Positions 2 through 15,485 of a DNA stretch of 15,485 bases are shown here, piece by piece. The notes below the pieces were generated by a model, which did not search any database, was not told the DNA's origin, and was given only the letters and a program-made list of their open reading frames with translations. Source of the stretch: Kiritimatiellia bacterium (lineage in GTDB: Bacteria > Verrucomicrobiota > Kiritimatiellia > RFP12 > UBA3636); contig JAFUXX010000111.1 in NCBI GenBank assembly GCA_017476965.1, forward strand, positions 1 to 15,485, given 5' to 3'. Position 1 is the first letter of the stretch. Each line of letters starts with the position of its first letter. Position numbers and translations under genes: made by a program.

Positions 2-1897
2 TTCGCGCCAGGCGGCGGCGACGCCTTCCGGCAGCGGCGCTTCGACGGCGCGCGGCAGCGCGAGACGCCCCGCGAGCGCGCCGTGGAAGGCGTCGAGGAA
101 TTTTTCGTCGCCGCGCGTCGCGAGGTACCACGCTTCGCCTTTGCCGAAGGCGTGGCGCACGAGGGCGGGGGCGCCGGCGTAGAAGTCGCGCCCGTACGCC
201 GCCACGGTCTCGGCGCCGTCTTCGGGGTGGACCACTTCGCACACGAGCGAAGCCCCGAACTTGCCGGCGAGTCCGAGCGTGTTGCCGGCGGCGGGGACTA
301 TTTCGTTGCTTTCGTCGTCGTACAGGTAGTCCGTCTCTTCGGCCCAGACTCCGAGCACTTTGCGCAGCGGCCCCGGGAACCCGCCGCGGAAGCACAGCCC
401 CGTCGGGCCCACGACGCCCGTGAGCCACGTGGCGACGAACGTGCCGCCCGCCGCGACGAAGCGCTCGACCCTTTCGGCGAACCCGTCGCGCAGCATGAAG
501 AGGCTCGGCGCGACGACGAGAGAGTACCCGTCGAGCGGCGCGTCGCCGTCCACGACGTCCACCTGCACGCCGCGTTTCCAGTACGGGCGGTAGTGCGCGG
601 CGACGGTGTCCGCGTTGCCCCGTTTGACCGCGTCGAGCGGCCCCTGCGACGCCTTGAGCGCCCAGTCGCTCTCGCGGTCGAAGATCATGGCGACTTTGGG
701 GCGCACCACGGAGCCGAGTGCCGGGCGCAACGCTTCGAGGTCGCGCCCGACTTGCGCGACTTCCTTGAACATCCGCGTGTTGCCGGTGCCTTCGTGGTCG
801 ATCACCGCGCCGTGGAATTTTTCCGATCCCCCGCGCCCTTTGCGGATCTGGAAGTACTGGACGGAGTCCGACCCGTGCGCCACGGCCTGGATCGACTTCA
901 TGCGGTGCTGTCCCGGACGCAGCAGGCGGTTGTGGTGGTACCAGTTCACGGGCCCCGGGCTCGATTCCATCATGAGGAACGGACGGCCGGGCTTGAGCGA
1001 GCGCATGTAGTCGTGCGCGAGCGCGATGAAGCAGGCCTGCTTTTCGGTTCCCCCGGGGCGCTCGTGGCACTGCGGGTAGCAGTCCCACGAAACGACGTCG
1101 ATCTCCTTGGCGAGCTTGGCGTAGTCGAGCCCGTCGTAGAAGCCCATCATGTTCGTCGTGACGGGCACGCCGGGCGAGAGGCGGCGGAGAGGCTCGACTT
1201 CGTTGCGCAGGAAATCCGCGGTCTGGTGCGACACGAAGCGGCGCCAGTCGAGGACGAGGCCGTCGACCGAGTCGTCGATCTGCTCGATCTGGTTCCAGTC
1301 CGTGTACGTGTGGCTCCAGAACCCTGTCCACCACGCCCGGTTCACAGCGTCGAGCGTTCCGTACTTGGCGCGCAGCCACGCGCGGAACGCTTCGATGCAG
1401 AGCGGGCAGCGGCAGTCGCCGCCGTACTCGTTGGAAACGTGCCAAAGCGCGAGCGCCGGGTGCTTGCCGTAGCGCGAGGCGAGCGCTTCGTTGATCCTTT
1501 TCACCGCCGCCCGGTAGACGGGGGACGTGAAGCAGTGGTTGTGGCGACGCCCCTGGAGCGCGCGCAGCGGCGGGCGGTCCGTCGGCCAGTCCATGCGGCG
1601 GATTTCGGGATTCGCCGCCGCGAGCCAGTTGGGCTTGGCGCCGGAAGGCGTGGCGAGCACCACCGCCATGCCGCGGTCCGCGGCGCGGTCCATGACGTCG
1701 TCGAGCCAGCCGAATTCGTACCGCCCCTCTTCCGGCTCCAGCGCCGTCCAGGAGAAAATCCCGACGGAGACGGAATTGATCCCGGCCTGCGGGAAAAGTG
1801 CGAAATCTTCGTCCACGATGCCCGGAACGTGGCGCCACTGGTCCGGGTTGTAGTCGCCGCCGTGGAGGAAAAACGGGAATTTTGTCGCGGTTTTCAT
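2..1897 (-). CDS. GH42 beta-galactosidase, C-terminus cut by the window edge
   Basis: Glycoside hydrolase family 42 enzyme that should hydrolyse terminal beta-D-galactosyl bonds of oligosaccharides. The minus frame is open without a stop from ATG at 1897 to the left edge (632 codons); family members are usually about 650-700 residues, so only the last part is missing. Residues 1-390 form the TIM barrel. It opens with the family-typical GGDYNPDQW, and the acid/base is Glu157 in SNEYGG. The nucleophile is Glu311 in FLMMES, followed by PGPVNW. Cys122, Cys162, Cys164 and Cys167 match the zinc-site cysteines of thermophilic GH42 enzymes. From about residue 398 (RPKVAMIFDRESDW) comes the trimerisation domain. 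There is no signal peptide, so it is probably cytoplasmic. It lies 70 bp downstream of the AsmA-like gene and is probably co-transcribed. No Shine-Dalgarno sequence precedes the start. Family assignment is secure; the natural substrate is not. Confidence 0.95.
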   Translation of the reverse strand, partial: MKTATKFPFFLHGGDYNPDQWRHVPGIVDEDFALFPQAGINSVSVGIFSWTALEPEEGRYEFGWLDDVMDRAADRGMAVVLATPSGAKPNWLAAANPEIRRMDWPTDRPPLRALQGRRHNHCFTSPVYRAAVKRINEALASRYGKHPALALWHVSNEYGGDCRCPLCIEAFRAWLRAKYGTLDAVNRAWWTGFWSHTYTDWNQIEQIDDSVDGLVLDWRRFVSHQTADFLRNEVEPLRRLSPGVPVTTNMMGFYDGLDYAKLAKEIDVVSWDCYPQCHERPGGTEKQACFIALAHDYMRSLKPGRPFLMMESSPGPVNWYHHNRLLRPGQHRMKSIQAVAHGSDSVQYFQIRKGRGGSEKFHGAVIDHEGTGNTRMFKEVAQVGRDLEALRPALGSVVRPKVAMIFDRESDWALKASQGPLDAVKRGNADTVAAHYRPYWKRGVQVDVVDGDAPLDGYSLVVAPSLFMLRDGFAERVERFVAAGGTFVATWLTGVVGPTGLCFRGGFPGPLRKVLGVWAEETDYLYDDESNEIVPAAGNTLGLAGKFGASLVCEVVHPEDGAETVAAYGRDFYAGAPALVRHAFGKGEAWYLATRGDEKFLDAFHGALAGRLALPRAVEAPLPEGVAAAWRE

Positions 1898-1967
1898 GTC
1901 GCGTGTGTTGCGTTTGGCCACGCCGAGGCCCGCAACGGCGCGCGGCGGGGGAGGGAAAGGACGGGGT

Positions 1968-3873: not shown

Positions 3874-3942
3874 CGCCCCCGACGGAAGCCGTGAGACACC
3901 GGCCTACCCGTCGCGACAACAAAACCCACATCCAAGAGAACT

Positions 3943-3950
3943 GAGAAAGG
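3943..3950 (+). promoter_or_regulatory. Ribosome binding site of the beta-helix gene
   Basis: GAGAAAGG lies 8 nt before ATG 3959. It is the clearest purine-rich ribosome-binding sequence in the window; most other genes here have none recognisable. Together with the signal peptide that begins at 3959, it selects this start over upstream in-frame ATGs such as 3641, which lie before the promoter. Confidence 0.6.
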
Positions 3951-3958
3951 TTCAGAAG

Positions 3959-6700
3959 ATGACCCGTTCCGCAAAAACGGCGTTTTTCGCCGCAGCGGCT
4001 TTGGCCGCGTTCGCGCCCGCGCTCCGGGCGACCGATTATTACGTTTCCGTCGACGGCGACGACGAGTCCGACGGTCTCTCCGCCGAATACCCGTTCGCGA
4101 CGCTCGACAAGGCGATCATCACCGCCACGGCGGCTGGCGACGTCATTCACGTCGCAACGGGCGAATACCTGACCGGCTATCCCGAATACGTGGCCCAGAC
4201 CGACAATGCCAAGTGGGGGCCCAATCTCAAGGCCAAGCTCGTCGGCGGCGGCGCTTCGCGCGACGGCGTCGTGATCAAGTCGCATGGCGAGTACCGCACT
4301 CTCCGCATGGCGGCGGGCTCCTGGCTCGAAAACGTCACCGTCGTCGGCGTCACCGACATATCCATCGCCGACAGGGGCGGTGCGATCGAAATTTCCGGCG
4401 GCACGGTCACGAACTGCGTCGTCCGCGACGGCACCTCCTACGCCAACGGCAACGTCTCCGGCGGCAACCTCTACGTCAACAACAACGACGCGCTCGTGGT
4501 CGATTGCGAAATCTACGGCGGCCGCGCCAAGAAGCGCGGCGGCAACGTCTATCTCGACCGCGGCACCGTCCTGAATTGCACGATCCACGACGGCGTCTGC
4601 GAAGACAACATCGGCGGCAACGTCTACCAGTACCAGGGCCTCCTGAAGGGCTGCACCATCTACGGCGGCACGGCGCTGAACGACGGCGGCAACGTCCGCA
4701 TGAACGGCTCCGGCACGATGGAAGATTGCTACATCTACGGCGGCGTCGTGCAGGCGAACGAAAAGAAGGGCGCCAACGTTTACATGGACTCCTCCGCCAA
4801 GATGTCCCGCTGCCGCCTCTCCGGCGGCTCCCACGCCGGCGGCTACAACGGCGGAAGCCTCGCGATCGGCTCTGCCACGGCCGTAGTCGAAGACTGCCTG
4901 GTCGAGGGGAGCGAGTGCGGCGGCGTTCTCTTCGTCGGAACGTCGTATCTCTACAACTGCACCGTCGTCGACAACGACAAGTACGGCATTTGGGCGTGGA
5001 ACGCCAGCTCGCACGTGTTCGACACCGTGATCTACGGAAACACGGAAAACGGTTCCAACAAGGACTGGACGGGCAACATCACCGGTTCTTCGGGCGAATT
5101 CGTGAACAACGCCGTGACCGAATCCGGAAGCCGCCACACGACGAGCGCTTACCCGTCAGTCGTCCTGCTCGCCGACGACTCGGCGTTCGCCGATTACGCC
5201 GGCGGCGACTACCGTCCCGCCGCAGGCGGGCCGCTCGTCGATGCCGGTGCCTCCGATACGCGCGGCGTCGCGGCTTCTACGACCGACCTTGACGGCAACC
5301 TGCGCACGAGCGGCGTCATCGACATCGGCTGCTACGAATACCAGAAGCCCGACATGGTCGTGCACATCGACGACGCGCAGTACAGCCAGGCGTTCGCCCC
5401 GGCGACCGTCGTGTTCTCGCATTCGACCGACAATTCGGCCTCGCCCGAAAACGTCGTCTTCACCTACGACTTCGGCGACGGCTCCGACGCCGCCACGACC
5501 GCCGGGGGGACGATTTCCCACGAATACGCCGAGCCCGGCATCTACACGGTTGCGATCTCGGCCGTGAACGACTGCGAAGAGGAAGAGGCGGAGATGGTCT
5601 ACGAGGGCTACGTGCGCGTGGCGTCGTCCACCGTTTACGTGACGCCAGGCAACCCCTCCGCCGGCACGTTCCCGTTCGACACTCCGGAAAAGGGCTACGG
5701 CAACCTCAAGACCGCGGTGCAGAACGCCCTCGACGGCTACACGCTCCTGCTCGGCGAGGGCGTCCACGAGACAGTCGACCAGGTTTCGTTCAACAAGGCG
5801 CTCGTCCTCCGCGGCGTCGGCGACACGCCGGAGGCGGTGGTCGTCCGCAACGTCACCGCGACGCCCGACACCTACTACCACCGGACGCTCGAAATGAACA
5901 ACGCCGCAGGCCGCATCGAGAACCTGACGATCGAGAACGGCTGCGTCCGCAACCAGAACGGCGGCAATCTCCGGCTCGTCACCGGCGTCGTTTCCAACTG
6001 CGTCATCCGCGGCGGCCTCGCCGTGGCCGACGGCGGCAACGCCGCCGGCGCGGGCGTGGAACTCGCCGGCGCGGGCACGCTCACCCACTGCATCGTTTCC
6101 AACAACGTCGTCCGCGGCACGTCTTCGAACGGCGGTCTCACCGGCGGCGCGGTTTTCGTGACCTACAACGCGAAAAACGGGCGCGTGTCGAACTGCCTCG
6201 TCGCGGGCAACGTCTACGAGACGAGCGGCGACACCGTGAAGTCCGGCGCGGCCGGCATCCGGTTCGGCGGCTCCAACGACAACACGCAGATCGAGAACAA
6301 CACCGTTGCCGGAAACGTCGTGGATGGCGAGCTTTCCGAGGATTCCGCCGGCATCCACTGCACCACGTGGTACGGCCGCCTGCGCAACAACGTCGTCGTG
6401 GGCAACTACGAGACGGGCAAGGCGAAGTACACGTCCGTGAAGGTTGATTTCGACCACTGCACCTGGGTCGGCAACGTCACGGACGACGACACGGCGCCGG
6501 AATCGCTCTTCGAGGATTTCGCCGGCTGCGACTACAGGCCGCGCCCCGGTTCCGTCGCCTTCAACGCGGGCGTGCTCGACGGGCTCGTCCTCCTTCCAGG
6601 CATCGACCTGGACGGAGAGGCCCGCGTCGCGTTCGGGAAAATCGACGCCGGATGCTACGAATGCCAGGCGCTTCCCGCCACGGTTCTCGTGGTCCGCTAG
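3959..6700 (+). CDS. Secreted double right-handed beta-helix protein with PKD domain and choice-of-anchor Q segments
   Basis: A 913-residue exported protein. Residues 1-23 are a signal peptide (basic MTRSAK, Ala/Phe-rich core, likely cleavage after ALRA). DYYVSVDGDDESDG starts the first parallel beta-helix (about 25-415), a fold shared with pectate lyases and adhesins. Its coils repeat Cys-x-Ile/Val-x-Gly-Gly with GGNV, with Cys at 153, 183, 207, 232, 257, 285, 313 and 334. Residues 417-460 (DYRPAAGGPLVDAGAS to DIGCYEY) match the choice-of-anchor Q pattern. A PKD domain follows (about 467-558, YDFGDGSD, ISHEYAEPGIYTVAIS). A second helix (about 560-857) and a second anchor-Q segment (858-901) complete the protein. 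No catalytic lyase residues can be assigned, so it may bind or cut polysaccharide at the surface. It ends LPATVLVVR with no visible PEP-CTERM or LPXTG signal. Its end overlaps the next gene. Confidence 0.9.
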   Translation: MTRSAKTAFFAAAALAAFAPALRATDYYVSVDGDDESDGLSAEYPFATLDKAIITATAAGDVIHVATGEYLTGYPEYVAQTDNAKWGPNLKAKLVGGGASRDGVVIKSHGEYRTLRMAAGSWLENVTVVGVTDISIADRGGAIEISGGTVTNCVVRDGTSYANGNVSGGNLYVNNNDALVVDCEIYGGRAKKRGGNVYLDRGTVLNCTIHDGVCEDNIGGNVYQYQGLLKGCTIYGGTALNDGGNVRMNGSGTMEDCYIYGGVVQANEKKGANVYMDSSAKMSRCRLSGGSHAGGYNGGSLAIGSATAVVEDCLVEGSECGGVLFVGTSYLYNCTVVDNDKYGIWAWNASSHVFDTVIYGNTENGSNKDWTGNITGSSGEFVNNAVTESGSRHTTSAYPSVVLLADDSAFADYAGGDYRPAAGGPLVDAGASDTRGVAASTTDLDGNLRTSGVIDIGCYEYQKPDMVVHIDDAQYSQAFAPATVVFSHSTDNSASPENVVFTYDFGDGSDAATTAGGTISHEYAEPGIYTVAISAVNDCEEEEAEMVYEGYVRVASSTVYVTPGNPSAGTFPFDTPEKGYGNLKTAVQNALDGYTLLLGEGVHETVDQVSFNKALVLRGVGDTPEAVVVRNVTATPDTYYHRTLEMNNAAGRIENLTIENGCVRNQNGGNLRLVTGVVSNCVIRGGLAVADGGNAAGAGVELAGAGTLTHCIVSNNVVRGTSSNGGLTGGAVFVTYNAKNGRVSNCLVAGNVYETSGDTVKSGAAGIRFGGSNDNTQIENNTVAGNVVDGELSEDSAGIHCTTWYGRLRNNVVVGNYETGKAKYTSVKVDFDHCTWVGNVTDDDTAPESLFEDFAGCDYRPRPGSVAFNAGVLDGLVLLPGIDLDGEARVAFGKIDAGCYECQALPATVLVVR

Positions 6701-8505
6701 GAAACACCGCGGTTCGCTTGCTTTCCGGTTTCGCCGCCGCGGTTCTTGCCGCGGCGGCGTCCGGCGCCGCGTCCGATCCCGGTCTTTCGCTCGCGCGCGG
6801 CCGCGCCGAGGCCGTCCAGAGCGGGCGGCTCGCGTTCGAGGGCGGCGGTTCCGTGGTGCTGAGCAGTTCCAGCGCGGAATGGTCGTCCGGCTTCCGGCTC
6901 CTGCCGCCGCCGGGCAGGGATTCGTTCGACCTGTCGTCCGGCCGCTACCTCGCGGCCGACGTCGAAAATCTCGGCGACCACCAGCAGCGGCTCTGCCTCC
7001 AGATCAAGGACGCCTCGCGCGACGTTTACGCCGGCATCGCCCTCGATCCAGGCGAAAAGGGAACGGTGAAGCTCCAGCTTCCGCACCAGTCGGTGTACGC
7101 TTTCCCGGCGGGCGCCAAGGGCGTGAAGACGCTCGACACCGCCGCGGTCACGAACATCGCGTTTCTCGTCGTGTGGCCGTACGAAGGGCAGTTCGCCGAC
7201 CTGCTGCGCTTCCGCGTCTCGAACGTGCGGCTCGACGGCGAACCGGACTGGGCGCGCTCCGTCGCTCCGGGCTCGTACCTGCCGTTCGTCGACAAGTTCG
7301 GCCAGTTCGCGCACGGCACGTGGAAGGGCAAGGTGGCGTCGTACGAAGATTTGCGCGCCGACTTCGCCGCCGAAACCGCCGCGCTCAAGCCGCCGCCCGC
7401 GTCCTGGGACGAGTTCGGCGGCTGGAAGGACGGCCCCCGCCTCGCCGCGACCGGAAACTTCCGCACCGAGAAGGTGGACGGCAAGTGGTGGCTCGTCACG
7501 CCGACGGGGCGCCTCTTCTGGTCGCTCGGCATCGACGTCGTGAAGATCGACAGCGACGCGCCGGACGGCCGCCTCCACCCCGATTGGTACGAAAGCCCGG
7601 CCCGGGCGTCGATGAGTTTCCCGACGTGGAACCTGCGCGAGAAGTTCGGCAAGACCGATTTCGCTCTCGACTACTGCGATTTCGTCATCCGCCGCCTCGA
7701 CTCGTGGGGAATCAACACGCTCGGCAACTGGTCCGAAAGCCTGTTCACGTCCGTTTCGCGCAAGCCGTACGCGATCGTCGCCGTCTCCAAGCCAGCCGGC
7801 GTGCCGTACCTCTCGGGCGGCTTCTACGACTCGCTCGACGCCACCTTCGCGGACAAGATGCGCGAGGCCGTGGCGGCGGCGTTCGCGGTGCCGGGCTCGG
7901 CGCTCGAAAACGCCGCGCTCGATCCGATGTGCATCGGGTTCTTCATCGACAACGAGCTCTCGTTCCCGTCCGACAGCGCGTACTACGAGCCGTACTTCAA
8001 GGCCTGCAAGGAGGCGCTCGCCGCCGCCGCGCCGGGCAAACTCTACCTCGGTTCCCGCTTCACCGGCCTGCGCAACTCCGACGCGCTCTGGAACGCCGCC
8101 GCGAAGTGGTGCGACGTGATTTCGGTCAATTCCTACGTGAACAGCGTGGAAGTTTTCGGACGCGGCGCCTACTCCGCTCCGGCGATCGACAAGCCGCTCC
8201 TGCACTCGGAGTTCCACTTCGGGACGATGCAACGCGGGATGTTCTCGGCGGGGCTGTGCCCGGTCGGCGACCAGTGCGAGCGCGCGCGCAGCTTCAAGCG
8301 CGTCGTCGAAGGCGCGCTGCGCCATCCGCTCTTCGTCGGCGCGCACTGGTTCCAGTACCGCGACCAGCCGCTCGTCGGCCGCGGCGACGGCGAAAACTAC
8401 CAGATCGGCTTCGTCGACGTCTGCGACCGCACGTACCCCAAACTCGCCGAAGCCGCCCGCGCGGTCGGCGAGGAGATGTACGAACTGCGGTCGTCCGCGA
8501 AGTGA
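6652..8505 (+). CDS. GH50-1: secreted GH50-type (beta-agarase family) hydrolase
   Basis: A 617-residue secreted hydrolase. An Arg/His-containing N-terminus and an Ala-rich core ending ASGAASD form a signal peptide. Residues of about 45-205 form an N-terminal beta-sandwich, carbohydrate-binding-like domain (LDPGEKGTVKLQLPH, RVSNVRLDGEPD). The catalytic TIM barrel starts near GNFRTEKVDGKWWLVTP. The acid/base is Glu435 (FFIDNELSF) and the nucleophile Glu520 (LLHSEFHFG), followed by HWFQYRDQPLVGRGDGENY, which resembles the GH50 C-terminal signature. Known GH50 enzymes are exo- or endo-beta-agarases; other galactans remain possible. The start is uncertain: ATG 6652, ATG 6661 and TTG 6718 are in frame and none has a good ribosome-binding site. 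Both ATGs lie inside the end of the beta-helix gene in another frame, which suggests translational coupling. The segment after the acid/base is much shorter than in GH50-2. Confidence 0.85.
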   Translation: MLRMPGASRHGSRGPLGNTAVRLLSGFAAAVLAAAASGAASDPGLSLARGRAEAVQSGRLAFEGGGSVVLSSSSAEWSSGFRLLPPPGRDSFDLSSGRYLAADVENLGDHQQRLCLQIKDASRDVYAGIALDPGEKGTVKLQLPHQSVYAFPAGAKGVKTLDTAAVTNIAFLVVWPYEGQFADLLRFRVSNVRLDGEPDWARSVAPGSYLPFVDKFGQFAHGTWKGKVASYEDLRADFAAETAALKPPPASWDEFGGWKDGPRLAATGNFRTEKVDGKWWLVTPTGRLFWSLGIDVVKIDSDAPDGRLHPDWYESPARASMSFPTWNLREKFGKTDFALDYCDFVIRRLDSWGINTLGNWSESLFTSVSRKPYAIVAVSKPAGVPYLSGGFYDSLDATFADKMREAVAAAFAVPGSALENAALDPMCIGFFIDNELSFPSDSAYYEPYFKACKEALAAAAPGKLYLGSRFTGLRNSDALWNAAAKWCDVISVNSYVNSVEVFGRGAYSAPAIDKPLLHSEFHFGTMQRGMFSAGLCPVGDQCERARSFKRVVEGALRHPLFVGAHWFQYRDQPLVGRGDGENYQIGFVDVCDRTYPKLAEAARAVGEEMYELRSSAK

Positions 8506-8532: not shown

Positions 8533-8560
8533 TTCAAATTTCCACGCGTGGACATATAAT
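8533..8560 (+). promoter_or_regulatory. Candidate promoter with palindromic operator before GH50-2
   Basis: TTCAAA (8533-8538, four of six -35 matches), a 16-bp spacer and a perfect TATAAT (8555-8560). The spacer contains the perfect 12-bp palindrome TCCACGCGTGGA (8541-8552), centred on CG as in LacI-family operators, so a bound repressor would block the polymerase. Transcription would start near 8567, about 60 nt before ATG 8629. The rest of the 123-bp gap holds only a weak CCGG/CCGG hairpin at about 8514-8525 and no convincing terminator, so read-through from GH50-1 remains possible. No regulator gene is in the window. Confidence 0.6.
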
Positions 8561-8628: not shown

Positions 8629-10092
8629 ATGGTCTCACCCCGATATTCCATCTATTCGCCGGCCGTTCCGTACGACGCCCTCAGGCGCCCGTTCGTTGAC
8701 CGGTTCGGCCAGTTCGCCCACGCGGACTGGCCGGCGAAGGTCCACGACGAGGCGGAGCTGCCTGCCGACCTCGCGCGCGAACGTGCCGCGCTCCTTCCGG
8801 CGCCGGCCGCGTGGGACCGCTGGGGCGGCGCGCTCGACGGCCCCGCGCTCGAAGCCACCGGCGCGTTCCGCACCGAAAAAACCGGCGGCCGCTGGACACT
8901 CGTCGATCCGGACGGCGCCCCGTTCTTCTCGCACGGCCTCGACACGCTGCGCCACTACACCGACGCCGCCAACGGACTCGCGAATCCCGACTGGTACGAA
9001 ACCCGTCCCCCGAAGAACGGCCGCATGGCTTTCACTCACTGGAACCTGCAGAAGAAGTTCGGGAAGATCGACTACCTTTCGGACTACTACGGTTTCATCC
9101 ACGCGCGCTTGGCGTCGTGGGGCTTCAACACCGTCGGCCGCTGGGGCGCATGGCGGCTCTCCGCCGCGGGGCTCACCCCGTACGTGCTGCTGCTCGACTC
9201 CCCGGCGAAGGCCCCGCGCCTGCCCGGCACCCGCATCTACGACGTGTTCCATCCGGATTTCGAGTCGAAGTACCGCGCCGGAATCCTCGACCAGACCCGC
9301 ACCGAGCCCGCCGTCGCCGCCGCCGTCGAAGATCCGTCCTGCATCGGCATTTCGGTGGACAACGAACTTCCGTTCGAGTCGATGATCGGCGCGATGATGG
9401 CGCAGGACGTCCGCGTCGCTCCGGTCAAGAACGCGTTTTTCGGCCACGTCCACGCGAAGTACGGCTCCCTCGGCGCGCTGAACGACGCATGGGGCACGAG
9501 TCTCAACACGTGGCCTTCCCTCGCCATGCTCGCCGCGCCGCTGCCGGGCTCCGGGTTCGCGGCCGACGTCGAGGAGTTCCGCCTCGAATGGCTCCGCCGC
9601 TATTTCCGCGCGGCGCGCGACGCGGTGAAGGCGCTCGCGCCTAAGCGCCTCTACTTCGCTGCGGCGTTCGCCGGCATGGAGCAGCCCGCGGCGGCGTGGG
9701 ACGCCGCCGCGGAGTTCGCCGACGTGCTAGTCGCCGACGTCCACGAGCGCGACGCCGCCTCGCTGCGTCCTCTCGGAACCGCCGCGATGGCGGACAAGCC
9801 GCTCCTCGTCGGCGCGTTCACGTTCGGGTGCCTCGACCGCGGAATGTTTTCCGCCGGGCCGTGTCCCGTCGAGGGGCAGAAGGCCCGCGCGGAGGCGTAC
9901 GCGAGGTTCGTCCGCGGCGCTCTCGCGAACCCGTGCGTCGTGGGGTGCCACTACTTCCAGTACCGCGACCAGCCGCTCGTCGGCCGCGGCGACGGCGAAG
10001 CGTTCCAGATCGGCTTCGTCGACGTCTGCGACCGCACGTACCCAGAGATGTGCGCCGCCGCCCGCGCGGTCGGCGAAAGCCTCTACGGTTGA
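8629..10092 (+). CDS. GH50-2: cytoplasmic GH50-type paralogue with missing nucleophile (likely pseudoenzyme)
   Basis: A 487-residue GH50-type barrel protein. It begins at the equivalent of the region just before the barrel (RRPFVDRFGQFAHADWPAKV), so the N-terminal beta-sandwich of its neighbours is absent. There is no signal peptide, and none can be added upstream: TAA at 8557-8559 closes the frame and no ATG, GTG or TTG lies in frame between it and 8629. The acid/base glutamate is kept (Glu246, SVDNELPF), but the nucleophile position is Ala396 (codon GCG at 9814, GAFTFG against GEFHFG or SEFHFG). Other shared positions also differ: LGSRF is FAAAF (Arg to Ala346), VNSY is ADVH (Asp370, His372) and FHF is FTF. 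The C-terminal YFQYRDQPLVGRGDGE block is intact. It retains a longer segment after the acid/base (GSLGALNDAWGTSLNTW) that its neighbours lack. The frame is fully open, so it is probably a maintained non-hydrolytic protein. Confidence 0.85.
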   Translation: MVSPRYSIYSPAVPYDALRRPFVDRFGQFAHADWPAKVHDEAELPADLARERAALLPAPAAWDRWGGALDGPALEATGAFRTEKTGGRWTLVDPDGAPFFSHGLDTLRHYTDAANGLANPDWYETRPPKNGRMAFTHWNLQKKFGKIDYLSDYYGFIHARLASWGFNTVGRWGAWRLSAAGLTPYVLLLDSPAKAPRLPGTRIYDVFHPDFESKYRAGILDQTRTEPAVAAAVEDPSCIGISVDNELPFESMIGAMMAQDVRVAPVKNAFFGHVHAKYGSLGALNDAWGTSLNTWPSLAMLAAPLPGSGFAADVEEFRLEWLRRYFRAARDAVKALAPKRLYFAAAFAGMEQPAAAWDAAAEFADVLVADVHERDAASLRPLGTAAMADKPLLVGAFTFGCLDRGMFSAGPCPVEGQKARAEAYARFVRGALANPCVVGCHYFQYRDQPLVGRGDGEAFQIGFVDVCDRTYPEMCAAARAVGESLYG

Positions 10093-10111: not shown

Positions 10112-12175
10112 ATGAAAGCGTTTTTCTTCACGATCCTCTTTGCGGCGGGCGTCCTTTTCGCCGTCTACCGCCTGTCGCCCCCTCCGGCCTCCACGGGCGA
10201 AGCGCCCGCCGATGCGCAGGCTGATCTCCCGCAGGAGCCTGCCGTCGACGAGTCTCCCGCTCCCGACGAGTCTCCCGCCCCCGCCGAGTCTCCGGCCACC
10301 GGCAAGCCTCCCGCCCCCGATTCTCAGGCTGCCCTCCCGCAAGAGCCCGCTCCCGCGTTTTCCATGGAAACCTGCCGTCTTGAGCCGGTCCACGGCGCTG
10401 AGGTTCTGCGCGACGGCGGAAACGCCGTCGTCCTGCGCCTCCCCAGCGCCGAGTGGAGCTGCGGGCTGCGCTTCCTACCGCCCGCGGGCCGCCGCTCGCT
10501 CGACCTTTCCGGCGGCAAGTACCTCGCGATCGACGTCGAGAACCGCTCCGCGTCGCGCCAGATGCGCCTCACGATGCACGTGTCGAGCGGCGGCGCGAAC
10601 TCCGAGGCCGCGGACCACGCCGTCGCCAACTTCACGAAGAACCGCGCGATAAACACCGGCATCGGTCTGGATCCCGGCGAAAAGGGCACCATGCGCATCC
10701 TGCTGCCGCACCCGGAAATCTACGCTTCGCCGGCCGGCGCGCCGGGGCCGTTCCTCGTCGACACCCACCACGTCAATTCCGTCGATCTCCAGGTGCAGTG
10801 GCCGTACGAGGACGAATTCCGCTACGTCGTCGATTGCCGCGTTTCAAACCTGCGCCTCGAAGGCGAGCCGGATGTTTCCCGCGCGATTCCCGCCGGGAGT
10901 TTCTTCCCGTTCATCGACCGCTACGGGCAGTTCATGCATTCCGAATGGCCCGAGAAGGTGCATTCCGACGAAGAGCTGCGCGAGGACCTGGCCCGCGAAG
11001 AGGCCGCGATCGCGGCGTCGCCGCGTCCCGCTTCGTGGGACCGCTACGGCGGCTGGGCGAGCGGCCCGCGCCTCGCCGCGACCGGCAACTTCCGCACGGA
11101 GAAGGTGGACGGCAAATGGTGGCTCGTCACGCCCGAAGGGCACCTTTTCTTCTCGACGGGCGTCGACGTGCTGCGCAACAACGTCGATTCCTCCGACGGC
11201 TCGAAGCATCCGGATTGGCACGAAACGCCCGTGCCGCCGGACCGCATGATGGCGTACCCGGACTGGAACCTGCGCAAGAAATTCGGCAAGGACGACTACC
11301 TCGCCGACTACTACCTCTTCAGCCAGAAGCGCCTCTGCGCGTGGGGCCTCAACACGATCGGCAACTGGGCGGCGCGCGAACTGCTCGTTTCTGCGCACAT
11401 CCCGTACGTGGCGAGCGTGGTTGAGCACGCGCGCGGCGTGAAGCGCCACCCGAAGTTCCACATCTACGACCTCGAAGACCCGGACTTCGAAAAGAACATG
11501 CGCGAGGCGATCCGCCGTCGTTTCGCCGAGGATTCGCCCGACGGCAAGATGCTGCGCCACGCCGCGCACGATCCGTTGTGCATCGGGTTCTTCGTGGACA
11601 ACGAGCTTCAGTTCCAGAAGTGGATACCCGAAGTCGGCGCGGAAAAGGCGGCGCCGCTTCTCGATCTCTACTTCCGCGTCTGCAAGGAAGAGATCCAGCG
11701 CGCCGCGCCGGGCAAGCTGTACCTCGGGAGCCGTTTCGTCGGGTTCCGCCAGGCCGGCATCCTGTGGGACGCCGCCGCGCGCCACTGCGACGTCGTGACC
11801 GTGAACGCCTACGCCAACTCCATCGCCAACATTTCCTCCAAGATCATGAACGGCGGCGTGCAGAAGCCGATCCTCGTCGGCGAATTCCACTTCGGCTGCA
11901 TGGACCGCGGGATGTTCAAGGCGAGCCTTTGCCCGGTGGGCGACCAGACGGAGCGCGGCCGCTCCTACACCCGCTTCGTCGAAGGCGCGCTGCGGCATCC
12001 GCTCGTCGTCGGTTGCCACTGGTTCCAGTACCGCGACCAGCCGCTCATCGGCCGCGGCGACGGCGAAGCGTACCAGTGCGGCTTCGTGGACGGCACCGAC
12101 CGCCCATACTGGCCCCTCTGCTTCGCCGCCCGCAAACTCGGCGAAAAAATGTACCTCGAACGCAATGCAAACTGA
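10112..12175 (+). CDS. GH50-3: membrane-tethered or secreted GH50-type hydrolase with proline-rich linker
   Basis: A 687-residue GH50-type enzyme. Residues 2-19 (KAFFFTILFAAGVLFAVY) are a hydrophobic signal or signal-anchor with no lipobox cysteine. Residues 22-82 are a Pro/Ala/Ser/Glu-rich stalk with four tandem six-residue units and LPQEPA twice. An N-terminal beta-sandwich like that of GH50-1 follows (about 84-265, LDPGEKGTMRILLPHPEIY). The catalytic barrel begins near GNFRTEKVDGKWWLVTP. The acid/base is Glu498 (FFVDNELQF) and the nucleophile Glu591 (ILVGEFHFGCMDRGMF); HWFQYRDQPLIGRGDGEAY follows. It should be catalytically competent and act outside the cytoplasm, possibly held on the membrane by the uncleaved segment. 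The ATG lies 19 bp after GH50-2 and has no good ribosome-binding site. The last 11 nt overlap the oxidoreductase start. Substrate is inferred as agar-like or another galactan from family only. Confidence 0.87.
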   Translation: MKAFFFTILFAAGVLFAVYRLSPPPASTGEAPADAQADLPQEPAVDESPAPDESPAPAESPATGKPPAPDSQAALPQEPAPAFSMETCRLEPVHGAEVLRDGGNAVVLRLPSAEWSCGLRFLPPAGRRSLDLSGGKYLAIDVENRSASRQMRLTMHVSSGGANSEAADHAVANFTKNRAINTGIGLDPGEKGTMRILLPHPEIYASPAGAPGPFLVDTHHVNSVDLQVQWPYEDEFRYVVDCRVSNLRLEGEPDVSRAIPAGSFFPFIDRYGQFMHSEWPEKVHSDEELREDLAREEAAIAASPRPASWDRYGGWASGPRLAATGNFRTEKVDGKWWLVTPEGHLFFSTGVDVLRNNVDSSDGSKHPDWHETPVPPDRMMAYPDWNLRKKFGKDDYLADYYLFSQKRLCAWGLNTIGNWAARELLVSAHIPYVASVVEHARGVKRHPKFHIYDLEDPDFEKNMREAIRRRFAEDSPDGKMLRHAAHDPLCIGFFVDNELQFQKWIPEVGAEKAAPLLDLYFRVCKEEIQRAAPGKLYLGSRFVGFRQAGILWDAAARHCDVVTVNAYANSIANISSKIMNGGVQKPILVGEFHFGCMDRGMFKASLCPVGDQTERGRSYTRFVEGALRHPLVVGCHWFQYRDQPLIGRGDGEAYQCGFVDGTDRPYWPLCFAARKLGEKMYLERNAN
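10247..10318 (+). repeat. Four 18-bp tandem units encoding a Pro-rich stalk
   Basis: Four consecutive in-frame 18-bp units at 10247, 10265, 10283 and 10301 encode DESPAP, DESPAP, AESPAT and GKPPAP. The first two differ at one base; the last two have diverged. They make up part of the flexible linker of GH50-3 between the membrane segment and the beta-sandwich. Such in-frame minisatellites can change linker length by slippage without breaking the gene. Confidence 0.85.
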
Positions 12176-13928
12176 AAAAATCGGAGTCGATTTCTGCGTG
12201 GTCGGCGGCGGTCTCGCCGGGCTTTGCGCCGCGGTCGCAGCTGCGCGCCGCGGCGCGAAAGTCGCGCTCGTCCACGACCGTCCCGTGCTTGGCGGCAACA
12301 GTTCGAGCGAAATCCGGATGCACGTGTGCGGCGCCCGCGGCGAGAACACGCGCGAGACCGGCTTGGTGGAAGAGCTGATGCTGGACAACTACCGCTACAA
12401 CACGCGCCCCACGTATTCGGGGTGGAACGCCGTGCTCTACGGCAAGGCGCAGTACCAGCCGGGCCTGACGCTCGTCCTCAACGCGAGCGTGAGTTCCGCG
12501 GCGGCGGAGGACGGCAAGATCCGTTCCGTCCGCGCCTGGCAGTGCACCACGCAGCGGTGGATCGAAATCGAGGCGTCGCTCTTCGCCGACTGTTCCGGCG
12601 ACGCGGTGCTCGCGCCTCTTTCGGGCGCGCTGTTCCGCCAGGGGCGCGAAGCGCGCGGCGAATACGGCGAATCGATCGCGCCGGTGGAGGCCGATTCGTG
12701 CACCATGGGCGCGAGTTGCCTTTTCCAGGCGCGCGAGTATGCCGAGCCGCAGCCGTTCGTTCCCCTGCCTTGGGCCAACCGCTACGAAAGCGCGGCCGAT
12801 CTGCCCGACAGGTTCATGGACGTGTTCCAGACCAATTTCTGGTGGATGGAAGTCGGCGGCACGGAAGATACTCTTTCCGGCGCGGAAAAGTGCCGGGAAG
12901 AACTGCTCCGGATCGCGTACGGCGTGTGGGACTACCTCAAAAACCGTTCGCCGGACCGCGCCCGTTACGAGCGGCTGGCGCTCGACTGGGTCGGCTTTCT
13001 CCCGGGCAAGCGCGAGAGCCGCCGCTACGTCGGCGACCATGTCCTGACGCAGGGCGACGTGGAGTCCGGCGGCCGTTTCCCGGATGTCGTGGCCTACGGC
13101 GGTTGGCCGATGGACGACCATTTCCCCGAAGGCTTCCACTACCGCGGCGCGGTTGGCACCACCTACCACCCGGCCCCGAGTCCGTACGGCATTCCCTACC
13201 GGTGTCTCTACTCGCGCAACGTCGGGAATCTCTTTTGCGCCGGGCGCGACATGAGCGCCACGCACGCGGCCCTGAGCTCGACCCGCGTCATGGCCACGTG
13301 CGCTCTCGAAGGCCAGGCGGTCGGCGTCGCCGCCGCGATCGCGGTGCGCGACGGTCTTTCCCCGCGCGCCGTCGGAGCGGAACGCCTGGCGGAATTGCAG
13401 GGCGCGCTGCTCGATGACGACTGCTGGCTCCCCGGCGTGCCGCGCCGCATTCCCGAGCCGTGCGCCGGCGCGGAATTGAGGGCCGGGGCAGGGGAGCCCG
13501 AACCTCTCCGCAGCGGCATCGACCGTCCTGTCGGCGGCGTGTCAAACTGCTGGACCGCCCCGGTCGGCACTCCGGTCGAGTACCGTTTCGCGCAGCCCGC
13601 GGCGCTTTCGTCCTGCCGGCTGGTGTTCGACAGCGATCTGGACCGCGGCGACCCTTCCCGCAAAGAAGGCCAGACGCGGCTGCTCAACATGCGCTACTGG
13701 ACCGGCATCGACGATTCTGCCTTCGCCCCGCCTGCGACGCTCGTGCGCGACTTCCGTCTGGAAGTGCTCGGCGACGGCGGCGCCTGGACCCTCGCCGCAA
13801 CAGTCCGCGACAACCACCAGCGCCTCGTCCGCGTGCCGCTTTCCGCCACCTGCCGCGGCCTCCGCCTCGTAGTCGAGCGCACCTGGGGCACCCCATCCCC
13901 CCGCGTCTTCGCCTTCGACGCGACCTGA
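12165..13928 (+). CDS. FAD-dependent oxidoreductase with C-terminal beta-sandwich domain
   Basis: A 587-residue flavoprotein of the FAD_oxidored type (PF12831-like) common in polysaccharide loci of Bacteroidetes and PVC bacteria. The N-terminal Rossmann motif is VVGGGLAG (Gly14-Gly15-Gly16 to Gly19), followed by VALVHDRPVLGGNSSSEIRM, a hallmark stretch of this family. The second FAD contact region is VGNLFCAGRDMSATHAALSS, followed by the helix carrying EGQAVGVAAAIA. After about residue 430 comes an all-beta domain of about 150 residues, possibly galactose-binding-like. There is no signal peptide, so it is cytoplasmic. The reaction is unknown; oxidation of a sugar or sugar-derived product of the neighbouring hydrolases is plausible but inferred. 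ATG 12165 lies inside the end of GH50-3 (TGA at 12173-12175), so translation is probably coupled. It is the last gene of the operon. Confidence 0.92.
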   Translation: MQTEKIGVDFCVVGGGLAGLCAAVAAARRGAKVALVHDRPVLGGNSSSEIRMHVCGARGENTRETGLVEELMLDNYRYNTRPTYSGWNAVLYGKAQYQPGLTLVLNASVSSAAAEDGKIRSVRAWQCTTQRWIEIEASLFADCSGDAVLAPLSGALFRQGREARGEYGESIAPVEADSCTMGASCLFQAREYAEPQPFVPLPWANRYESAADLPDRFMDVFQTNFWWMEVGGTEDTLSGAEKCREELLRIAYGVWDYLKNRSPDRARYERLALDWVGFLPGKRESRRYVGDHVLTQGDVESGGRFPDVVAYGGWPMDDHFPEGFHYRGAVGTTYHPAPSPYGIPYRCLYSRNVGNLFCAGRDMSATHAALSSTRVMATCALEGQAVGVAAAIAVRDGLSPRAVGAERLAELQGALLDDDCWLPGVPRRIPEPCAGAELRAGAGEPEPLRSGIDRPVGGVSNCWTAPVGTPVEYRFAQPAALSSCRLVFDSDLDRGDPSRKEGQTRLLNMRYWTGIDDSAFAPPATLVRDFRLEVLGDGGAWTLAATVRDNHQRLVRVPLSATCRGLRLVVERTWGTPSPRVFAFDAT

Positions 13929-14026: not shown

Positions 14027-15485
14027 ACGGCATCCCTACCTTCACGCGGAAGAAGCGGCTCGCCGCGTTCGTCGGGCTCCAGTCGCCGCCAAGCGTCTCC
14101 TTGCCCTTGACCGTGTAGACGCGCGCTTCGCCGAGATCCGGCGTCCACGTCACGACCGGGGAGCCGTCCGCTCCGATCCAGATGTGCGTCTCGAAACGGT
14201 CGGACCAGTTTGTCGGGTTCAGTCCCGCCACGTAGCACTGCCAGACCGCGTTCACGCCGTTGGCGGCGGTTGCCCGCGCCGCCGCCTCGTAGCCCGCTTC
14301 GCTGCCGTCGCCCAGCATGTACGAGTCCAGCCAGGCGTAGGGAACCGGCACGGGCGTGGTGACTGTGTGGTCGCCGCCGTTCTTCACGAGCGGATCGGTG
14401 AAGGTCGCGTAGACTTCGTCGTAGTCGGTCACGCCGTCGCCGTCCGTGTCGGCCTTCGTCGGGTCGGTCCCGAGCATATCCTCCTCGGCGTCGAGCAGTC
14501 CGTCGCCGTCGGTGTCGAGCGCGGTCATCACGCGGATCGGCTGCGCCCGCGTAGAATCAGCGAGGGGGTCGCCCGTGTCGACCACCGCCCAGACCGTCTC
14601 CCACGCGCTCGTGAACGAAATGCCCGCCATGTTCCAGGAGATTCCCGCGTCGTAGCCGTTGCCTTCGCCCGCGAGCACCGCTCCGAGGTCGTCGGCGCCG
14701 ATTTCCGGCCCGTCCGGCTCGCCCCGCCGGAACGAAACGACCGTCCCTTCGCGCGCCGGTCCGAGCCCGTAGTTGCGCACCGTGGCGGTGAGAAGGCGGA
14801 TTTCCGCCGTCTCCGCGACGCACCGCGCGTTCTCCGGCCACAGGTCCGGTGCGCCGGGCTTCCAGACCGCTTGGTTGTTCGAGAGCTCCGCGTCAGCTGC
14901 GGACGCCGGCGTTTCCGCCGCCGCGCGGAACGTCAGTTCGGCGAGCGAATCGTCGCAGACCCAGAGGTTCGTCACGGCGACCGCCGCGCCGCCGGGCAGG
15001 TCGAGCGCGACGTGCGCGCCGGTTTCGCCGAAAAGCTCCGTTTCGGCGCCAGCGCCGTCGCGCACCCACAGGCGCGGCCTCACCCCCGCCGCCGTCCCGA
15101 GCCCGAGGTTTCGCACCGTCATTACGATGCGCGCCTCTTCGCCGGGGACGGTGTCGCCCTCGGCGAAGGAGATGTCCGCCGCCAGCACCGCCGGGTCGGC
15201 CGTCGCCGGGAGTGCCGCCTCGCGAATCTCCGTCACGCCGGTTTCGACCTCGCCCGCGGCATTCGTCGAAACGGCGGCGCTTTCCCAGGCAAGATGCAGC
15301 GCCCCATCCGCGTCGAACGCGCCCGACACGGCCCGCGACTGGCGCCCTTTTTCCGCCGCCGCCGCCACCGGACCGCCCCACGCGCCCGTGGCTGGGTCCC
15401 GCGGCATCGCGACGGGATGCGAGGAAAGCCCGTCGTCGGACGGCTCGGCCCAGACGAGCGCCATCGCGCCGTTTGCGCCGCGCAC
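14025..15485 (-). CDS. Secreted CARDB/calcium-repeat protein, N-terminus outside the window
   Basis: The C-terminal 486 residues of a larger surface or secreted protein; the frame is open to the right edge, so the GTG there is not a supported start. The visible order is as follows. The end of a region with ALHLAWESA- and ALVWAEPSD-like strands may be beta-propeller blades. Two CARDB-like adhesion domains follow (about 15210-14870, VMTVRNLGLGTAAGV; and 14860-14530, TATVRNYGLGPAREG). Next are two acidic thrombospondin type 3-like calcium repeats (DTDGDGLLDAEEDMLGTDP and DTDGDGVTDYDEV, about 14520-14405). Last is a C-terminal module (YVAGLNPTN, VVTWTPDLGEARVYTVKGK, RFFRVKVGMP; about 14350-14028), which I recall as a recurring tail of Kiritimatiellota secreted proteins and which may be a sorting domain. 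It converges with the oxidoreductase operon and is probably transcribed separately. Function is likely adhesion or binding; no catalytic site is seen. Confidence 0.85.
   Translation of the reverse strand: MRGANGAMALVWAEPSDDGLSSHPVAMPRDPATGAWGGPVAAAAEKGRQSRAVSGAFDADGALHLAWESAAVSTNAAGEVETGVTEIREAALPATADPAVLAADISFAEGDTVPGEEARIVMTVRNLGLGTAAGVRPRLWVRDGAGAETELFGETGAHVALDLPGGAAVAVTNLWVCDDSLAELTFRAAAETPASAADAELSNNQAVWKPGAPDLWPENARCVAETAEIRLLTATVRNYGLGPAREGTVVSFRRGEPDGPEIGADDLGAVLAGEGNGYDAGISWNMAGISFTSAWETVWAVVDTGDPLADSTRAQPIRVMTALDTDGDGLLDAEEDMLGTDPTKADTDGDGVTDYDEVYATFTDPLVKNGGDHTVTTPVPVPYAWLDSYMLGDGSEAGYEAAARATAANGVNAVWQCYVAGLNPTNWSDRFETHIWIGADGSPVVTWTPDLGEARVYTVKGKETLGGDWSPTNAASRFFRVKVGMP

Follow-up and report, generated by a model that had tools for sequence, protein, structure and literature searches.

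Why would a GH50-fold protein be kept within a cluster of hydrolase genes after losing the nucleophile of its family? The question is raised by a 15,485-nucleotide stretch of DNA from a Kiritimatiellia bacterium (contig JAFUXX010000111.1; this whole stretch is hereafter the window), whose genome, G000, is incomplete (75% complete) and in which three GH50 genes follow one another on the forward strand. The original prediction held that the middle gene, GH50-2, encodes a pseudoenzyme: a retained cytoplasmic protein with another role, such as binding, sensing or scaffolding a galacto-oligosaccharide, or with an altered mechanism. The genes of the window are as follows.

2..1921, reverse strand: GH42 beta-galactosidase with a trimerisation domain, reaching the window end
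3959..6700, forward strand: large protein with matches to PKD and choice-of-anchor Q
6652..8505, forward strand: GH50-1, a GH50 protein with both catalytic Glu residues and a hydrophobic N-terminus
8629..10092, forward strand: GH50-2, a GH50-fold protein of 487 aa that lacks the nucleophile, an N-terminal domain and any obvious signal sequence
10112..12175, forward strand: GH50-3, a GH50 protein with both catalytic Glu residues and a hydrophobic N-terminus
12165..13928, forward strand: FAD-dependent oxidoreductase (PF12831), its start overlapping the end of GH50-3
14028..15485, reverse strand: TSP3-repeat protein, reaching the window end

The reading frame of GH50-2 was intact, free of stops and frameshifts as had been claimed, and the predicted lack of an N-terminal sandwich and signal peptide agreed with what we found. 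GH50-2 is separated from GH50-1 by 123 bp and from GH50-3 by 19 bp, so GH50-2 and GH50-3 are probably co-transcribed. Searches of Pfam and NCBIfam assigned no family to GH50-1, GH50-2 or GH50-3 at E 1e-3, and Rfam gave no match anywhere in the window at E 0.1. Judged by eye, the 3959..6700 product has a signal-like N-terminus and beta-helix-like repeats; a protein of this type also lies upstream of GH50 genes in several of the loci.

Two noncoding stretches near these genes were inspected. The leader of the 3959 gene (3877..3958) was conserved in the window and in loci L038, L039, L040, L042 and L044, and carried a promoter-like TTGAC...TATAGT together with a purine-rich, RBS-like 16-mer, GAACTGAGAAAGGTTC, that could fold into a small hairpin. 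In its exact form this 16-mer occurred once each in 5 of the 40 genomes searched (its own included), always at this locus; the L044 copy deviates at the last base. A stem was predicted upstream, with both-sided changes in just 2 of 14 pairs and an unfavourable covariation term, and L042 breaks most of it. Between GH50-1 and GH50-2, positions 8533..8560 read TTCAAA-16-TATAAT with a perfect palindrome, TCCACGCGTGGA, in the spacer. We rejected this as a promoter of GH50-2 itself: it was not found upstream of GH50-2 in L038, L041 or L042, and its single match in the window compares with 0.59 expected, 91 of 200 shuffles giving at least one.

To place GH50-2 among its relatives, we aligned the three window proteins with the best 120 of 358 matches from a 5.8-billion-protein set, giving 123 rows. 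Three rows whose later parts failed to align (P0017, P0020 and P0042) were dropped before counting, leaving 120; P0017 and P0020 carry A346. A 305-aa fragment, P0021, was included in the tree and residue counts and lay outside the entropy and N-terminus counts. The nucleophile Glu was absent in 21 of the 120 rows and present in 99. In a quick tree, the 21 rows formed one side of a single branch (SH-aLRT 100) with a stem of 1.03 changes per column, and a single change explained the loss of Glu, compared with a mean of 19.8 when labels were shuffled (0 of 500 shuffles were as low). The clade comprises the window protein, P0001-P0016 (488-503 aa, 62-87% identity), the P0021 fragment, the longer P0018 and P0019 (53-54% identity), whose N-terminal extension resembles by eye that of GH50-3, and P0038, a compact, deep member that also has no N-terminal domain. 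Because P0038 leaves the same fork as P0018 and P0019, either the nucleophile or the N-terminal domain may have been lost first. A profile search added 11 proteins (P0121-P0131, from the best 120 of 351 matches), all with Glu.

Orthologues with the same substitution, the search for which had been proposed as a check, were indeed found. Among 387 genomes of the phylum, 40 matched at 1e-100, and the matches with a locus were inspected: the clade members were the top matches of G000, G001, G003, G011, G014 and G023, and apart from L072 the remaining loci inspected have Glu. Together with G006, G009, G012 and G032, this brings the number of genomes with the clade to 10. As judged from the aligned proteins, the loss of the nucleophile is a feature of the clade and not a lone mutation, and a catalytic residue has been lost in a conserved lineage, as would be expected of a glycosidase pseudoenzyme. 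Outside the clade, the protein of L072 (G412) has Val at the nucleophile position and is normal at the other sites inspected, which would be either an independent single change or an error.

The residues that set GH50-2 apart, all on the forward strand, are these.

8953..8955: His109, just past barrel strand 1; conserved in 20/20 clade rows covering the site
9139..9141: Arg171, just past barrel strand 2; conserved in 20/20 clade rows covering the site
9364..9366: codon 246, GAA (Glu), the acid/base position, Aga50D Glu534; Glu in 21/21 clade rows
9664..9666: Ala346; Arg in 99/99 Glu-bearing rows, and in the clade Ala in 20 and Pro in P0038
9736..9750: residues 370-374 (Asp370, His372, Arg374), at and after barrel strand 6
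9814..9816: codon 396, GCG (Ala), the nucleophile position, aligned to Aga50D Glu695
9820..9822: Thr398, where the clade has Thr, Ser or Asn and 94/99 Glu-bearing rows have His

Homology to GH50 structures extended across the whole barrel. The Glu after barrel strand 4 that serves as acid/base is present in GH50-2, whereas the nucleophile of a retaining GH50 enzyme is replaced by Ala in 20 of 21 clade rows and by Thr in P0011, against Glu in 99 of 99 others. By sequence and fold, GH50-2 is therefore a GH50 relative without the nucleophile of catalytic GH50 proteins. The original prediction had named these same changes (Ala396 at the nucleophile site, Glu246 kept, the Arg of LGSRF and an Asn/Tyr pair lost), and the alignment bore it out on each: Asn370 and Tyr372 are both present in 99/99 Glu-bearing rows, and Tyr372 is lost in all 21 clade rows. 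R346A, N370D, Y372H, E396A (T in one) and F242S set the 18 compact rows apart from every one of the 99 Glu-bearing rows, and V106T did so for 16 of 17 compact rows. H109 and R171 were present in all 17 compact rows covering them, as well as in P0018, P0019, P0038 and the L089 protein; position 171 is Asn in 81/99 Glu-bearing rows. Since His372 becomes Arg in P0038, and Arg374 becomes Tyr in P0018 and P0019, only H109 and R171 of these residues are clade-universal.

A different Glu at the nucleophile position would have spoken against the prediction; the alignment showed none. We also considered, and rejected, a substitute nucleophile elsewhere. Position 351 holds Glu (E351 of GH50-2) in 17 of 18 compact rows, yet P0018 and P0019 have Arg there, and among positions holding D, E, H, K, R, N or Q, the residues newly invariant in the clade were H109, N130, H137, R171, H208, Q222, Q259 and N434, none of them acidic. 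Residues 258-316 of GH50-2 weakly resemble GH42 and GH14; the segment, retained in GH50-2, is missing from its Glu-bearing neighbours GH50-1 and GH50-3, and it is absent from 40 of 123 rows, including P0038 of the clade.

A lost residue, together with three rows (P0017, P0020 and P0042) whose unaligned ends may mark frame-disrupted or misassembled copies, could be read as a duplicate in decay or a sequencing error. We reject this reading as highly improbable, given orthologues in 10 genomes that have the change in common, their single clade in the tree and the low dN/dS. In NG86 comparisons of the window with L038, L039, L040, L041 and L042, dN/dS for GH50-2 was 0.119, 0.182, 0.190, 0.188 and 0.167, respectively (dS 0.71-1.24, the L041 and L042 pairs being near saturation). 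Values for GH50-1 over the same loci were 0.241, 0.206, 0.197, 0.137 and 0.191, and those for GH50-3 were 0.216-0.221. The closest pair, L039/L040, gave 0.095 for GH50-2, 0.087 for GH50-3 and 0.342 for GH50-1; distant GH50-2 pairs, which are less reliable, gave 0.341 (L044) and 0.436 (L045), with L043 saturated. GH50-2 is under purifying selection, at dN/dS similar to that of its catalytic neighbours, and the relaxed selection or frame disruption in orthologues that would have told against retention was not seen.

The locus is conserved as well, consistent with the claim of a place inside a hydrolase operon. GH50-3 was the next same-strand match downstream of the clade member in 10 of 10 loci (the window, L038-L045 and L089), and GH50-1 lay upstream in 6 of them (the window and L038-L042). 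GH50-2 is missing from loci L047 and L056, which both carry the upstream protein together with GH50-1 and GH50-3, so GH50-2 looks like an addition within one lineage. Sodium:solute symporter genes were present among the neighbours scanned in L040 and L045. Upstream of the P0018-type gene, L045:3658-7293 encodes a large protein that matches PA14 and GLEYA, for which tblastn gave no match to the window's upstream protein (3959..6700).

Where in the cell would such a protein act? As a crude stand-in for signal-peptide prediction, we took the highest mean hydropathy of any 11-residue stretch among the first 50 residues, with a cut of 1.8. GH50-2 reached 0.55, compared with 2.22 for GH50-1 and 2.83 for GH50-3. 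More broadly, among the 98 Glu-bearing rows that exceed 560 aa, 95 scored at least 1.8, versus 2 of 20 clade rows with an N-terminus, namely P0014 (1.84) and P0019 (2.29), the latter perhaps through an overlong start. That GH50-2 has no hydrophobic N-terminus thus held; the cytoplasmic location itself, which the original prediction had also claimed, is likely on this crude proxy.

The pocket of GH50-2 appeared well preserved. With the changed residues already known, we took strand ends -2 to +5 as an active-site face, 64 residues in all. Over the 17 compact rows, mean entropy was 0.42 on the face versus 0.74 elsewhere, a ratio of 0.56 that no permutation of 5000 reached; with P0018 and P0019 added (19 rows) the ratio was 0.63 (0 of 5000). 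The 99 Glu-bearing rows gave 0.76 (40 of 5000); 0.56 versus 0.76 is a descriptive contrast between groups that differ in depth. Of 132 family-conserved positions, 17 were changed in the clade and 115 unchanged; 8 of the 17 lay on the face, compared with 18 of the 115 (one-sided Fisher p 0.006, on a face defined post hoc). A useless pocket should have relaxed.

Together, these data suggest that the GH50 clade of GH50-2 is conserved and neofunctionalised, and that it is very unlikely to carry out retaining double-displacement hydrolysis: with Glu396 missing, the covalent intermediate cannot form. Since Glu246 is kept, one-step inverting cleavage would be possible, given a supplied nucleophile. 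The invariant acid/base Glu, the conserved pocket, the gain of H109 and R171 and the lack of a new carboxylate lean towards altered chemistry with an anion such as phosphate, on the analogy of GH130 and GH112 described below. We accordingly rank first, if tentatively, a repurposed cytoplasmic catalyst that uses an anionic nucleophile. In the proposed scheme, exported GH50-1 and GH50-3 would cut a galactan-type glycan, and a short oligosaccharide product would be imported and acted on by GH50-2 in the cytoplasm. Glu246 would still give a proton to the leaving group. An anion would sit in the space freed by Glu396, held by Arg171, His109 and, in most members, His372, and would attack the anomeric carbon in a single inverting step. 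In clan GH-A, residues of strands 2 and 6 lie on either side of the nucleophile; from their place at barrel strand ends only, R171 and H109 may face the A396 cavity. The favoured anion would be inorganic phosphate, yielding alpha-galactose 1-phosphate; the sugar, the anion and the geometry are all putative. That GH50-2 is a beta-galactoside phosphorylase proper is a narrower claim, possible but rather doubtful.

One point against the anionic nucleophile is the variation at positions 372 and 374 noted above. A second is that the residues preceding the acid/base Glu vary (DSE in L038, GNE in P0038, GSE in L089), with Asn245 becoming Ser in L038 and L089 and Asp244 becoming Gly in P0038 and L089, though the equivalent Asn533 is an active-site residue in Aga50D. 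Another is that a binder, too, would keep its pocket. A non-catalytic binder or sensor, the main reading of the original prediction, whose pocket would hold a galacto-oligosaccharide and signal or buffer it in the cytoplasm, is a serious possibility that we place behind the anion-using catalyst; R171 and H109 might then meet a negatively charged group on the ligand, either sulfate or uronate. The nucleophile and two more family-invariant residues are gone, while equivalents of F443, R453 and E457 are kept in 19-20 of 20 clade rows, and nucleophile-to-Ala mutants of the same clan bind ligand, such as the E324A beta-galactosidase in complex (4uoz). Against a binder, the acid/base Glu is present in every clade row, where a binder would have no need of it, and none of the 8 window proteins scanned matched a regulator family in Pfam. 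Of the original prediction, a retained protein that is no normal hydrolase stands; a pseudoenzyme is one of two live readings.

Two other kinds of chemistry seemed less probable. In an inverting hydrolase, Asp370 or another carboxylate would activate water, as in GH97, where one subfamily has Gly at the nucleophile site, a small residue as in GH50-2, and a base elsewhere (PMC2670981). Asp370 occurs in 18 of 18 compact-subclade rows but is Asn in P0018, P0019 and P0038, and unlike the GH97 inverters with their separate conserved base, the clade has no newly invariant acidic residue; we regard this reading as improbable. Less probable still is substrate-assisted catalysis, or transfer or lyase chemistry, in which Glu246 would serve as the acid on a modified sugar and a substituent of that substrate would occupy the Ala396 cavity. 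GH50-3 has an FAD oxidoreductase gene as its neighbour in the window and in L038, but that gene lies on the opposite strand in L042 and had no match in the available DNA of the seven remaining GH50-2 loci, several of which stop shortly past GH50-3; no specific signature of such chemistry was found.

For the preferred anion-using catalyst, the fate of galactose 1-phosphate was sought in the genomes. A galactokinase-domain match was present in 9 of 10 clade genomes. None of the 10, of which five are 90% complete or more, had a match to the GalT C-terminal domain PF02744, and the usual route from this sugar phosphate was accordingly not seen; the two results speak neither for nor against its formation. 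Even at a Pfam cut-off relaxed to E 5, 18 clade members gave no GH112 family, on the premise that a GH112 model is among those searched; GH112 was also absent among the structure-search matches listed, which is uninformative either way.

If GH50-2 is a phosphorylase, one cluster would show a retaining hydrolase turning into a phosphate-using enzyme through a small, testable set of residues, with paralogues that have both catalytic residues and relatives that have the N-terminal domain (P0018 and P0019) at hand for comparison. If it is a binder, it would be a clean example of a glycosidase fold kept for recognition. On either reading, annotation by fold alone would mislabel GH50-2 as an agarase or galactosidase. 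Among the open-licence PMC papers listed, no title or abstract opening reported a nucleophile-less GH50 protein or a GH50 phosphorylase.

Compared with known systems, GH50-2 shares 27-30% identity with the GH50 exo-beta-agarases Aga50D (4bq2-4bq5), AgWH50C (5z6p) and PfGH50B (6xj9) but has no CBM-like N-terminal domain or obvious signal sequence, and it lacks the nucleophile Glu and the R646, Y672 and H697 equivalents of Aga50D. BpGH50 (5t3b), unlike GH50-2, aligned with both catalytic Glu residues, in DNE and TEF. VadG925 of Victivallis belongs to the same family but is a working beta-galactosidase (PMC11079163), which makes a beta-galactoside a plausible substrate for GH50-2. A missing signal peptide is named as a phosphorylase marker in PMC8950772. 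GH130 differs in family and sugar but offers the same contrast: in PMC4599007, its phosphorylases are cytoplasmic with basic phosphate-binding residues, its hydrolases are secreted with carboxylates there, and the authors propose predicting mechanism from location and residue features. The closest functional candidate is GH112, an inverting beta-galactoside phosphorylase whose phosphate site lies near the nucleophile position of GH42 beta-galactosidases (PMC8106489). The clade may, at a likelihood we would put below that of the general anion-using scheme, represent a new type of glycoside phosphorylase, cytoplasmic and specific for beta-galactosides, that arose inside retaining GH50 through loss of the nucleophile and gain of an anion site, paralleling the proposed relationship between GH42 and GH112.
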